Source of the DNA: an uncultured Pelagibacteraceae bacterium
Lineage (GTDB): Bacteria; Pseudomonadota; Alphaproteobacteria; Pelagibacterales; Pelagibacteraceae
Reading direction: 5' to 3'
Assembly (NCBI GenBank): GCA_902568465.1
Contig: CACFQR010000001.1
Coordinates: 1 to 64,000, forward strand
DNA: 64,000 nucleotides
Shown here: positions 21,535 through 24,531 of the stretch, in pieces
How the letters are laid out: every line of letters starts with the position of its first letter
Position numbering within the stretch: the stretch's first letter is position 1
Notes under the pieces: model-generated
Database searches by the model: none
Told to the model about the DNA's origin: nothing
The model's input: the letters and a program-made list of their open reading frames with translations, nothing else
Position numbers and translations under genes: made by a program

Positions 21535-23655
21535 ATGAAAAATCCCCCTAAATTAAAACAAAAACTAGAAGTCAAAAAGTATCACGGAATTGAAATAAAA
21601 GATGAATACAGTTGGATTCATCAAAAAAATATTCTTGAGGTTTTGAGAGATAGTTCCAAATTAAATCCTGAAGTAAGAAAATATTTAGAAGAAGAAAACG
21701 CTTATACAAAATTTAAAATGAAAGATACTGAGCAAATTCAAAAAAAATTATTTAGAGAAATTAAGGGAAGAATTAAGCTAGATGATGAGTCTCTTCATTT
21801 TTTTTATAATAAAGATGGATGGGAATATTGGACTAAAACAACTTCTGAAAATAATTATCCAATACAGTTAAGAAAAAAAATAGAGGATAGTAAAGACAAA
21901 GTTCAAGAATATTGGAATGGTGACAAAGAGAAAAAAAAATTAGGTGCTAGTTATTTTGGTGTGGGAGACATCTCTGTTAGTCATAATCATTCTCTTTTGG
22001 GATATTCGCTGGATCTTAATGGATCAGAGTTTTACAGTATTTATATCAGGAGAATAGCAGATGAAAAAATTATTAGTGAAAAAATTGAAAATACTTCTGG
22101 AGGGATAACTTTTAGTAAAGACTCTAGATTTATTTTCTACACTTTATTAAATGAAAAACATCAACCAAAAAAAGTCTTCAGACATAAAATTGGAACATCG
22201 CAGAAAGAAGATGAGTTAATTTATGAAGAGCTTGACCCAAAATTTACAGTAGGGATGGGAGGTTTAACTGCTGACGAAAAATTCTTTACAATTGGTACCT
22301 CGGATCACTCTACAACAGAAACACATTATTTTACTTCTGATTCTGCAAATTCAGACGAAAAAATAAAATTAAACCTTTTTCAAAGACGAGCTGAAAAGAT
22401 TAGATATTCAATTGACTCGTGGCAGAACTATTTTTGGATACATACAAATCAAGATAAATCACCAGATTTTAAAATTTGTAGATGCAAACATAATGATCTT
22501 AAAACCTGGGAAGATTTTATTCCTGCTAAAAAAGAAGTTGTGATTGGGTCTTTAGAATTTCTTGATGACTGGATCATACGAGGAGAAATGTCAAACGCTT
22601 TACCTAAATTATTTGTGAGAAATATTAAAACAAATAAAGAGGAAGAACTATTATTCGCTGAAGAAAAAGTTTGGAGTCCTTCTATTTCTGAAATGCAAAA
22701 GGAAACGAATACGGATAGCATTTATATTAATTATTCTTCCCCAAAAACTAATGGAAGATCTTATGTCTATAATTTAAGAACAAAAGAAAAAAAATTTGTT
22801 AAGCAACAAGAAGTTTTGGATAAAAATTATTCTCCAAAAAATTATATTACAGAAAGACTTGAGTGTAGGTCTCATGATTCAAGGTTAATACCTTTGACCA
22901 TAACAAGACATAAAGATACGAAGATTGATGGAACTGCAAATGTTTTGTTATATGGTTATGGCAGCTATGGTAACAATTTAGGTTTTGGGTTTTCAAGTAC
23001 TAGACTTAGTTTACTGGATAGAAATATTATTTGGGTTGATGCATCTATTAGGGGTGGTCGGGAACGTGGAGAAATTTGGCATGAAGAAGGCAAAATGCTA
23101 AATAAAAAAAATACTTTTGAAGACTATGTCTCTGCTGCAAAATTTTTAATTGAAAAAAAATATACTTATAAAGGTGGAATAGTAGGTTATGGCGGAAGCG
23201 CTGGAGGTCTACTTTTGGGAAGCGTGGTTAATAAATCACCAGAATTATTTTTAGGAATGCTGATTCAAGTGGGTTTTTTAGATTCACTTACTACTAATCT
23301 AGATCACTCTTTACCACTTACATTGGGAGAGCTAACCGAATTTGGAGATGCAAAAAATAATAAACAACATTTTGAGTATATTAAATCTTATTCTCCTTAT
23401 CATAATATAAAAAAAATGAATTATCCTAATTTACTATTAGTAACTAACCTAAAAGATGTGAGAGTTATTTTTGATGAACCAACAAAATTTACAGCTAAAC
23501 TTAGAGAATATAAAACTGATAAAAATTTATTACTTTTAAAATGTGAATTAGAGGATGCAGGCCATGGTGGAAAATCTGGTAGAGATTCTGCTATTGAAGA
23601 AATAGCTTTTGACTATAGTTTTATTTTAAAAATCTTAAATAAATTAAATACCTAG
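21535..23655 (+). CDS. S9A prolyl oligopeptidase family peptidase (oligopeptidase B-like)
   Basis: 706 aa serine peptidase. The N-terminal stretch KKYHGIEIKDEYSWIHQ matches the start of S9A enzymes, followed by a seven-bladed propeller (to about residue 420) and a C-terminal alpha/beta hydrolase. Visible catalytic elements: nucleophile in GYGGSAGGLLLG, Asp in LKDVRVIFDEP (usual DxRV) and His in DAGHGGKSGR. Oligopeptidase B cuts short peptides after basic residues; specificity here is inferred from the closest motif match. No signal peptide, so cytoplasmic. It lies just upstream of the heat-shock gene. Confidence 0.87.
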   Translation: MKNPPKLKQKLEVKKYHGIEIKDEYSWIHQKNILEVLRDSSKLNPEVRKYLEEENAYTKFKMKDTEQIQKKLFREIKGRIKLDDESLHFFYNKDGWEYWTKTTSENNYPIQLRKKIEDSKDKVQEYWNGDKEKKKLGASYFGVGDISVSHNHSLLGYSLDLNGSEFYSIYIRRIADEKIISEKIENTSGGITFSKDSRFIFYTLLNEKHQPKKVFRHKIGTSQKEDELIYEELDPKFTVGMGGLTADEKFFTIGTSDHSTTETHYFTSDSANSDEKIKLNLFQRRAEKIRYSIDSWQNYFWIHTNQDKSPDFKICRCKHNDLKTWEDFIPAKKEVVIGSLEFLDDWIIRGEMSNALPKLFVRNIKTNKEEELLFAEEKVWSPSISEMQKETNTDSIYINYSSPKTNGRSYVYNLRTKEKKFVKQQEVLDKNYSPKNYITERLECRSHDSRLIPLTITRHKDTKIDGTANVLLYGYGSYGNNLGFGFSSTRLSLLDRNIIWVDASIRGGRERGEIWHEEGKMLNKKNTFEDYVSAAKFLIEKKYTYKGGIVGYGGSAGGLLLGSVVNKSPELFLGMLIQVGFLDSLTTNLDHSLPLTLGELTEFGDAKNNKQHFEYIKSYSPYHNIKKMNYPNLLLVTNLKDVRVIFDEPTKFTAKLREYKTDKNLLLLKCELEDAGHGGKSGRDSAIEEIAFDYSFILKILNKLNT

Positions 23656-23656
23656 T

Positions 23657-23684
23657 ATTGAAATTATAAAAAAAACTACCATAT
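23657..23684 (+). promoter_or_regulatory. Candidate heat-shock (sigma-32/RpoH) promoter
   Basis: ATTGAAA at 23657-23663 and TACCATAT at 23677-23684 are separated by 13 nt. The sigma-32 consensus is CTTGAAA, 11-16 nt, CCCCATnT, so the match is 6 of 7 and about 5 of 7 specified bases with typical spacing. The predicted transcript would start around 23690-23692, just at the first hairpin of the leader described next. Located directly upstream of the small heat-shock gene, which strengthens the call. AT-rich background makes chance matches to the TTGAAA part easy; the CCATAT part is rarer. Confidence 0.6.
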
Positions 23685-23691
23685 AACTATT

Positions 23692-23753
23692 TGTAAGTTG
23701 CCATTGTGGGGCTTACACAAATTAACCTTGCTAAATATAAGGAGGTAAATATG
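23692..23753 (+). promoter_or_regulatory. ROSE-like RNA thermometer in the hsp20 leader
   Basis: The leader can form two stem-loops. Hairpin 1 pairs TGTAAG (23692-23697) with CTTACA (23712-23717), enclosing an inner CCA/TGG stem. Hairpin 2 pairs ACCUUGCU (23725-23732) with AGGAGGU (23740-23746) across a 7-nt A/U loop: seven base pairs, with G23730 bulged, and the whole Shine-Dalgarno AGGAGG buried. ROSE elements are defined by a U(U/C)GCU motif pairing with AGGA of the ribosome site with one bulged G, upstream of small heat-shock genes; this fits base for base. Heating would melt the stem and expose the site. No in vivo evidence is available from sequence. Confidence 0.75.
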
Positions 23754-24191
23754 ACAAGTAAGGATTTATCAATCTTTAATTCTCTTAGACCTTTTAGCAT
23801 TGGATTCGATGACATGTTCGATCAGTTTGAATCTATGCTGGGTAATGGTGGAATGGTTCAAAGTAACTACCCCCCATACAACATTAGAAAGGCTGGAAAA
23901 GACAAATACGCTATAGAAGTAGCTGTAGCCGGCTTTAATAAAGATGATGTTGAAGTTGAGTTTGAAGACAAACTTTTAACAGTTAAGACTAAAAAATTTA
24001 ATAAGACTGTTGAAAAAGATGGTGATGAAATAATTCACAAGGGAATATCTCAAAGGTCATTCTCTAGATCATTTACTATTGCTGACGATGTTAAGGTAAG
24101 TGGTGCAGAGCTCAAAGATGGCCTGTTAACGATAAACTGTGAAAAAATCATACCAGAACAAAAGAAAAAGAAACTAATTCCAATTAAATAA
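23751..24191 (+). CDS. Small heat-shock protein (Hsp20/IbpA family)
   Basis: 146 aa from ATG 23751, chosen over the track's GTG (23706) because a perfect AAGGAGGT ribosome site lies 5 nt upstream and the N-terminus RPFSIGFDDMFDQFESM is the IbpA-like start. The alpha-crystallin domain spans about residues 38-130 (PPYNIRKAGKDKYAIEVAVAGF, then the LKDGLLTI strand). The C-terminal IPI motif (LIPIK) that caps neighbouring subunits is present. It holds unfolding proteins for DnaK/ClpB. The leader contains a ROSE-like thermometer and a sigma-32-like promoter, suggesting dual heat control. Confidence 0.93.
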   Translation: MTSKDLSIFNSLRPFSIGFDDMFDQFESMLGNGGMVQSNYPPYNIRKAGKDKYAIEVAVAGFNKDDVEVEFEDKLLTVKTKKFNKTVEKDGDEIIHKGISQRSFSRSFTIADDVKVSGAELKDGLLTINCEKIIPEQKKKKLIPIK

Positions 24192-24203
24192 GCTGGAGCC
24201 TTG

Positions 24204-24225
24204 CTTGCGGGTTAATGCCCGCAAG
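24204..24225. terminator. Hairpin between convergent hsp20 and lipoprotein genes
   Basis: A perfect 8-bp stem CTTGCGGG / CCCGCAAG with a 6-nt loop lies in the 37-nt gap between convergent stop codons. It is one of very few GC-rich structures in the window. Neither strand has a clear U tract after it, so it is a weak intrinsic terminator or a 3' mRNA-stabilising stem. Position, between two gene ends, supports a 3' end role for both transcripts. Confidence 0.55.
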
Positions 24226-24228
24226 TAA

Positions 24229-24531
24229 TTAAAAACATCCTTTGCTAGTAAATCCCACAACCATTTTGTTATTGTCAATTTCAAACTTTCTTTCGCAAGT
24301 AATATTGTATTTTTTTTTAATATAAACAAAAAAGATTGATCCTTTATCATCTTTGATAATGTCATCTGGCTCTCCCATGACAATTCTTAACTCTGATTCG
24401 GGTTGCTGTAAAAATTTGCTTAATTTATCATTTTCAATTTTGATTGCTCTTTGAGACTTATTTTCAATTGTTTGACAGCTAGAAAGTGCAAAAAGTGCAA
24501 TTACTGATAAAAGTAAGATATTAAATTTCAT
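24229..24531 (-). CDS. Small lipoprotein of unknown function
   Basis: 100 aa with a lipoprotein signal: positively charged start, hydrophobic core, lipobox ALSSC with Cys about residue 19. The mature part is about 80 aa, with ESELRIVMGEPDDI, which resembles the GxPD segment of SmpA/BamE-like folds, then KYNITCERKFEIDNNKMVVGF and a terminal Cys. Two Cys in the mature domain could form a disulfide. I cannot assign a function; a BamE-like domain is only a suggestion. It is monocistronic, converging on hsp20. Confidence 0.7.
   Translation of the reverse strand: MKFNILLLSVIALFALSSCQTIENKSQRAIKIENDKLSKFLQQPESELRIVMGEPDDIIKDDKGSIFFVYIKKKYNITCERKFEIDNNKMVVGFTSKGCF

Follow-up and report, generated by a model that had tools for sequence, protein, structure and literature searches.

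A two-hairpin ROSE-like leader, probably an RNA thermometer, upstream of hsp20 in SAR11 bacteria and its counterpart in marine T4-like phages

Both alpha- and gamma-proteobacteria are known to have ROSE-like RNA thermometers. The ibpA thermometers of Pseudomonas are 61-62 nt long, comprise two hairpins, are associated with sigma-32 and have been proven experimentally, with hairpin II alone sufficing (Krajewski 2013, PMC3669281). Rhizobial ROSE1 and the E. coli ibpA ROSE have three to four hairpins (PMC3669281). Among phages, the RNA thermometers given in the Robo-Therm paper are those of lambda cIII, the SPbeta blyA fourU and a sigma70 fourU (PMC11182007).

The window analyzed here, a stretch of 64,000 nucleotides from an uncultured Pelagibacteraceae bacterium (SAR11), contains an hsp20 gene whose product (P0001) matched Pfam HSP20 above the cut-off; its best NCBIfam model is IbpA, with a score under the equivalog cut-off. 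A 706-aa open reading frame on the same strand ends at 23655 and hsp20 begins 95 nt further on; the gap contains a promoter-like site and two hairpins, as follows.

23657-23684, + strand: RpoH (sigma-32)-like promoter, ATTGAAA (23657-23663), 14-nt spacer, ACCATAT (23678-23684)
23692-23717, + strand: hairpin I, 10 pairs, bulged G at 23700, loop AUUGU
23725-23746, + strand: hairpin II, ROSE-like core, in which the anti-Shine-Dalgarno strand (anti-SD) ACCUUGCU (23725-23732) pairs with AGGAGGU, leaving G 23730 bulged
23740-23746, + strand: Shine-Dalgarno sequence (SD) AGGAGGU, entirely paired and sequestered in hairpin II
23751-24191, + strand: hsp20, IbpA-type small heat-shock protein (sHSP), 146 aa, Pfam HSP20 67.3 bits

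A sequence-only reading of this DNA had proposed that the anti-SD pairs with AGGAGGU around one bulged G and masks the whole SD, and we found both the sequence and its position to be as described. By the last two digits of their coordinates, the pairs of hairpin II are A25-U46, C26-G45, C27-G44, U28-A43, U29.G42, C31-G41 and U32-A40, with G30 bulged; the start codon (ATG, 23751-23753) lies outside this hairpin, following 4 nt beyond it. The second hairpin that had been reported upstream is hairpin I, to which we add the bulged G at 23700 in the context UUGCC/GGGG. Both bulged G's share the context Y-[G]-C-Y opposite R-G-G, as they do in the Rfam ROSE_3 consensus. The promoter-like site differs from CTTGAAA/CCCATAT at 2 of 14 positions, and a scan of the leader region for sigma-70 promoters returned no match. 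With a -10 element ending at 23684, the leader would be about 60 nt long, in agreement with the length first suggested.

In its two hairpins, leader of about 60 nt, sigma-32-type promoter and ibpA-type gene, the locus resembles the Pseudomonas ibpA elements (PMC3669281; RF02523), and it shares with them a U(U/C)GCU anti-SD with a bulged G, a masked SD and a free AUG, as well as, with the RF02523 consensus, a bulged G in both hairpins. Unlike the experimentally proven Pseudomonas elements, the SAR11 leader is known here from sequence and prediction; it also belongs to a different clade, and its SD hairpin is shorter, A+U-rich and, by prediction, about 2 kcal/mol weaker. The UYGCU/AGGA core, the bulged G and the placement of the 3' hairpin before small heat-shock genes are common to rhizobial ROSE1 and E. 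coli ibpA ROSE, whereas the SAR11 leader has two hairpins rather than their three to four.

Scanning Rfam at gathering thresholds gave no match in the window. The best match was to RF02523 (ROSE_3), full-length at 28.3 bits (E = 3.7e-4 for a 251-nt stretch), and the other ROSE families gave no match in the leader region at E up to 10. As a control, a P. aeruginosa-like ibpA leader reached 69.2 bits, indicating that ROSE_3 covers the short Pseudomonas type. Because 28.3 bits is below the gathering score of 43, we call the window leader ROSE-like and not a member of ROSE_3. The original assignment to the ROSE type therefore holds for the UYGCU and bulged-G features and for the two-hairpin form of about 60 nt, and does not extend to the Rfam family score. 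The leader has the features of a ROSE-like class: U(U/C)GCU pairs imperfectly with the SD in a 3' hairpin with a bulged G, there are at least two hairpins of which the SD hairpin is last with the AUG outside, the element lies in the 5' UTR of a small heat-shock gene, and compensatory change is found (in hairpin I in SAR11 and in hairpin II in phages).

Of 397 Pelagibacteraceae genomes, 289 encode a homologue of P0001; when only good genomes are counted, the figure is 131 of 140. UUGCU..AGGA stood ahead of the hsp20 start in 110 of 111 SAR11 loci, a set in which some genomes were reached twice; the sole exception (L010) reads UUGCU..UGGAGG. We aligned 43 distinct SAR11 leaders with MAFFT, without fitting to structure (alignment A1); 99.4% of cells pair, and pairing falls to 57-67% when the partner is slid by one base. 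Conservation of the stem and the bulged G in relatives, on which the sequence-only reading had staked its proposal, is thus borne out. Double changes occurred in 47 cells, against 12.4 expected, and in 7 pairs; none of 500 shuffles reached the observed covariation score, although related sequences are not independent and such shuffle counts are guides, not probabilities. Compensation in SAR11 falls mainly in hairpin I, where 5 of the 9 modelled pairs changed on both sides; hairpin II hardly varies, which is what an SD with a fixed partner would be expected to show, and therefore adds little covariation within SAR11. The compensatory changes anticipated for these leaders are accordingly found mainly in hairpin I, with almost none in the SD hairpin. 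Across 230 distinct leaders, hairpin I with its bulged G scored at least 15 in 218, compared with about 2% of shuffled sequences, in a search that required four outer pairs, so that the pairing fraction follows by construction, and that was applied identically to the shuffled control. It is near certain that a conserved two-hairpin, ROSE-like leader occluding the SD lies directly before the hsp20 start.

A covariance model built from A1 only (R1) scored 60.3 bits on the window. In the rest of the same genome its sole other match at E ≤ 1 (C5; 17.9 bits, E = 0.59) was rejected, as it lies inside a gene among the atp gene cluster. R1 matches end at the hsp20 start in divergent SAR11 genera whose proteins are only ~50-57% identical, and positive genomes comprised G002, G005, G007, G008, G009, G016, G019, G021, G022, G023, G048 and G116; in G116, the hsp20 with the match is of the phage type. 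Three genomes missed by R1 (G034, G020 and G038) still show UUGCU..AGGAG by eye in their leaders (L375, L378 and L376, respectively). Matches of 16-24 bits count only because they are placed exactly at hsp20, as similar extra sites fell inside genes; a high-scoring site at position 2978 of L158, for example, was rejected because it lies within a gene.

Sampling across the order, we obtained R1 matches at E ≤ 0.01 in 27 of 28 genomes belonging to the same family as the window; the silent genome (G012) had no HSP20 match. None of 30 genomes of a second Pelagibacterales family matched R1. Six leaders of that family (L397-L402), when read directly, all carry AAUCGCU UA AGGAGGAUU before hsp20; they have a longer upstream part with seemingly more than one hairpin, closer to the classical ROSE form, and this longer multi-hairpin leader is possibly the ancestral one.

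Beyond the claims of the sequence-only reading, the element is general in SAR11 and is also present in marine phages. We searched IMG/VR contigs and named phages, and found hairpin I and UYGCU..AGGA directly upstream of hsp20 in pelagiphages HTVC008M, Mosig and HTVC103P and in methylophage Melnitz; in pelagiphage HTVC115P the core before hsp20 is clear and hairpin I is less canonical. The leader was present in all 19 named T4-like cyanophages checked, namely P-SSM4, P-SSM3, Syn33, S-SSM4, S-RSM4, S-CREM1, S-BM3, Sf-CH1b, ACG-2014h, P-RSM1 and S-H38 and, from an even-spread sample, S-RIM2, ACG-2014a, d, e and f, S-ShM2, S-SSM6a and S-RIM12. AG-345-D19 has a variant of the leader, and Salicola phage SCTP-2, which is a jumbo phage and only distantly related, has no such leader. 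Where viral contigs extended far enough upstream of the gene, all 78 P-SSM4-like and all 78 ACG-like loci had the core. Approximately 500 phage records carry such an hsp20, and leaders were inspected in part of them. Rfam detected little of this: at gathering thresholds the only ROSE match among phage loci was the P. aeruginosa-like one, and 20 viral loci including cyanophage leaders gave no ROSE match down to E = 0.5. The P. aeruginosa-like case is an unverified record named "Pseudomonas phage Y7" (L196, OQ572409.1) with an ibpA-like gene and a full ROSE_3 leader, and it looks like host DNA.

The best genome-wide R1 match fell at hsp20 in Melnitz (E = 1.4e-6), Mosig (1.1e-4) and HTVC008M (1.6e-3) and, more weakly, in S-BM3 (0.0075), Syn33 (0.05), S-SSM4 (0.15) and P-SSM4 (0.21). 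Weak R1 scores alone prove little because the best match in ACG-2014h (E = 0.0038) is false, lying inside nrdA. A 23.8-bit site at 149118 in S-MbCM7, in nrdA, was rejected, as was a site at 128869 in S-BM3, which lies at a gene junction and was examined for the core pattern. We trained a second model (R2) on 17 cyanophage leaders, which contain 8 double-change cells against 1.4 expected (0 of 500 shuffles). R2 found the leader in 78 of 78 held-out viral loci (E = 1.5e-9 to 2.5e-3), and wherever it matched a held-out phage genome, 8 in all, the top genome-wide match lay precisely at hsp20 (P-RSM1, ACG-2014h, Sf-CH1b, ACG-2014e, S-RSM4, S-H38, Melnitz and an ACG-2014f isolate). Genome scans of Mosig, HTVC008M and the Pseudomonas control with R2 gave no match, and on the SAR11 window R2 scored weakly (11.1 bits). 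In phage hairpin II, the pair just outside the UYGCU/AGGA core, which played no part in selecting the sequences, can form in 69 of 71 distinct hairpins, compared with 40.5 in shuffled sequences (maximum 52), and it occurs as C-G, G-C and U-G. In many phage leaders, a T4-like late TATAAATA lies 3-4 nt upstream of hairpin I. The same two-hairpin element is thus carried, together with hsp20, by Kyanoviridae phages of SAR11, Methylophilales and picocyanobacteria. The sHSPs of cyanophages fall among class A bacterial sHSPs, nearer to these than to the sHSPs of their hosts, and were probably acquired laterally (PMC3827213), a placement that fits joint transfer of gene and leader.

Several departures from the common phage form were seen. 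An anti-SD variant UGUCU, in which the bulged G is displaced by one position, precedes phage-type hsp20 in L129, L139, L149, L161, L174-L182 and L379, the last of which is in SAR11 assembly G116 and is probably phage DNA. A variant core ACGCU opposite GGAGGU (L166-L173) lies before more distant viral hsp20 genes, and a bulged G is still possible there. In ACG-2014-like cyanophages (L282-L361), the SD AAGGA is within the hairpin and is only 1-3 nt before the ATG, which is unusually short.

A site resembling an RpoH promoter (≤3 of 14 mismatches) was found in 82 of 82 distinct SAR11 leaders, compared with 2.2% of shuffles, and its -10 ends a median of 6 nt upstream of hairpin I. The genome of the window encodes RpoH (350 bits); given this and the position of the site just before hairpin I, the mRNA should begin at hairpin I. 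The predicted energy of hairpin II is -6.9, -5.4, -3.8 and -2.2 kcal/mol at 10, 20, 30 and 40 C, and that of hairpin I runs from -15.0 to -7.6 kcal/mol over 10-40 C. By these values for 10 to 30 C, hairpin II can stay closed at ocean temperatures, although its stability is marginal; the earlier proposal had depended on a stem strong enough for such temperatures, and it passes on this point.

We consider the leader at 23692-23750 to be, in all probability, a short two-hairpin ROSE-like RNA thermometer of an ibpA-type hsp20 with temperature as its signal in SAR11. On this model, an RpoH-type promoter would start the mRNA at hairpin I, and at ordinary temperature hairpin II would hide the SD. Warming would open the weak pairs around the bulged G and so permit ribosome binding, with hairpin I expected to stay folded (still -7.6 kcal/mol at 40 C). 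Marine T4-like phages with the same element and hsp20 would presumably gate their sHSP in the same way, and with moderate confidence we take temperature to be the signal of the leader in phages too. Nearest-neighbor energies ignore the non-canonical pairs of ROSE; owing to these limits of the folding model, we infer thermal gating by analogy with the Pseudomonas elements, which share this shape and are proven thermometers.

Four other accounts of the leader deserve comparison with thermal gating. The simplest, chance complementarity between a U-rich leader and an SD, might be entertained from the window leader alone, since its folding is unremarkable (z-score -1.53, weak evidence) and the bare pattern TYGCT..AGGA..ATG is frequent by chance, with 20 occurrences in the same genome versus 8 for a reversed control. 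We dropped the bare core as proof for this reason, its chance occurrence being too frequent in the SAR11 genome and in phages. What decides the matter is comparison and not the lone sequence: conservation, covariation, which already refutes chance, and the matches of held-out models all contradict this account, and we give it practically no credence. That the leader is constitutive, only damping translation or shielding the mRNA 5' end without sensing, we regard as unlikely. It draws on the folding predictions, in which SD exposure in the window leader rises gradually, in no switch-like manner, from 0.09 at 5 C to 0.42 at 45 C, and several relatives fold poorly: by nearest-neighbor folding, the SD of the Mosig leader is ≥0.9 open up to 35 C and that of SAR11 leader L039 is about half open at all temperatures. 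This poor sequestration arises partly because the anti-SD can pair with the first codons or in a shifted register. However, simple damping has no need of a strict bulged-G core, UYGCU opposite AGGA, before a heat-shock gene, and in Pseudomonas this core has been proven to act as a thermometer. For the phages, the leader could instead be a remnant that hitch-hiked along when hsp20 was copied from a bacterium and that no longer functions, as the probable lateral acquisition of cyanophage sHSPs (PMC3827213) and the SDs placed 1-3 nt before the ATG in some phages might suggest; this is very improbable, as compensatory changes keep accumulating within phages and the element is retained in all named T4-like marine phages examined.

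The most substantial competitor to direct thermal control, although we think it the less likely principal function, is that the hairpins chiefly form a binding site for the sHSP itself: free IbpA-type protein would repress its own translation until aggregates titrate it away, so that the signal would be protein damage and not temperature directly. E. coli IbpA offers a precedent: it binds the 5' UTR of its own mRNA, which contains a thermometer, and its self-repression needs Arg93 and an aromatic residue 34 (PMC10474464). The equivalent of Arg93 is present in 250 of 251 distinct sHSPs (81 of 81 from SAR11 and 169 of 170 from the viral set), and nearly all have an aromatic residue at 34. Hairpin I, moreover, is conserved in SAR11 and phages, though it is dispensable for the heat response in Pseudomonas (PMC3669281), and so it may serve the sHSP, which we regard as a lead. 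Against this, RNA binding has been demonstrated for IbpAs of gamma-proteobacteria only, P0001 does not retain the Lys98 position, and the geometry of the SD hairpin by itself already fits thermal control. Binding may also combine with thermal melting; judging from the protein sequences, sHSP self-repression may be a second layer of control over a thermometer. For the phages as a whole, we lean towards the view that nearly every hsp20 gene of the marine T4-like group (cyano-, pelagi- and methylophages) is controlled by a ROSE-like thermometer that the virus itself carries, perhaps in combination with repression by the viral sHSP of its own synthesis, and that this thermometer works in hosts from three bacterial groups, including cyanobacteria whose own sHSPs are of another clade.

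SAR11 bacteria are often called poor in regulation. Retention of a thermometer across SAR11 genera suggests that, despite genome streamlining, these bacteria have kept heat control of proteostasis by means of a 60-nt RNA. In SAR11 strain HIMB5, the main text of one study refers to "a possible RNA thermometer" and gives neither gene nor class (Stav 2019, PMC6429828); it could be this hsp20 leader, and it is the only mention of a SAR11 RNA thermometer that we found in open-access literature. The hsp20 leader is not mentioned in a 2009 survey of P. ubique (PMC2704228). Few phage RNA thermometers are known (PMC11182007). Like those of lambda cIII, SPbeta blyA and the sigma70 fourU, the marine element is a structured leader of a phage gene for which a temperature response is proposed or shown; unlike them (one or few phages each, none of ROSE type and none before an sHSP gene), it is widespread, occurring in a sizeable fraction of the records and contigs of marine T4-like phages and accompanying a gene that is widely conserved in the most common phages of this kind. 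We found no earlier report, in open-access text, of a ROSE-like leader before hsp20 of these phages: searches for RNA thermometers in cyanophages, SAR11 and Prochlorococcus gave nothing relevant, and the leader goes unmentioned in the cyanophage sHSP papers that we checked. Should the leader respond to temperature, the production of viral chaperone in the sunlit ocean would be tied directly to water temperature or host heat stress.

Three further observations concern sequences within or after hsp20. At 23755-23765 of the window, codons 3-5 (AGUAAGG) are complementary to the anti-SD CCUUGCU, and this alternative pairing could free the SD. A switch of the anti-SD to these codons was set aside as a general feature: it is limited to SAR11 clades sharing the peptide MTSK, is not found in phages, and is therefore outside the main model. 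An inverted repeat, CTTGCGGGTTAATGCCCGCAAG, at 24200-24230 right after the hsp20 stop is a possible transcript 3' end, with no strong T run. In viral locus L151, a glutamine riboswitch (RF01739, 67 bits) lies at 2509-2559, just downstream of hsp20.
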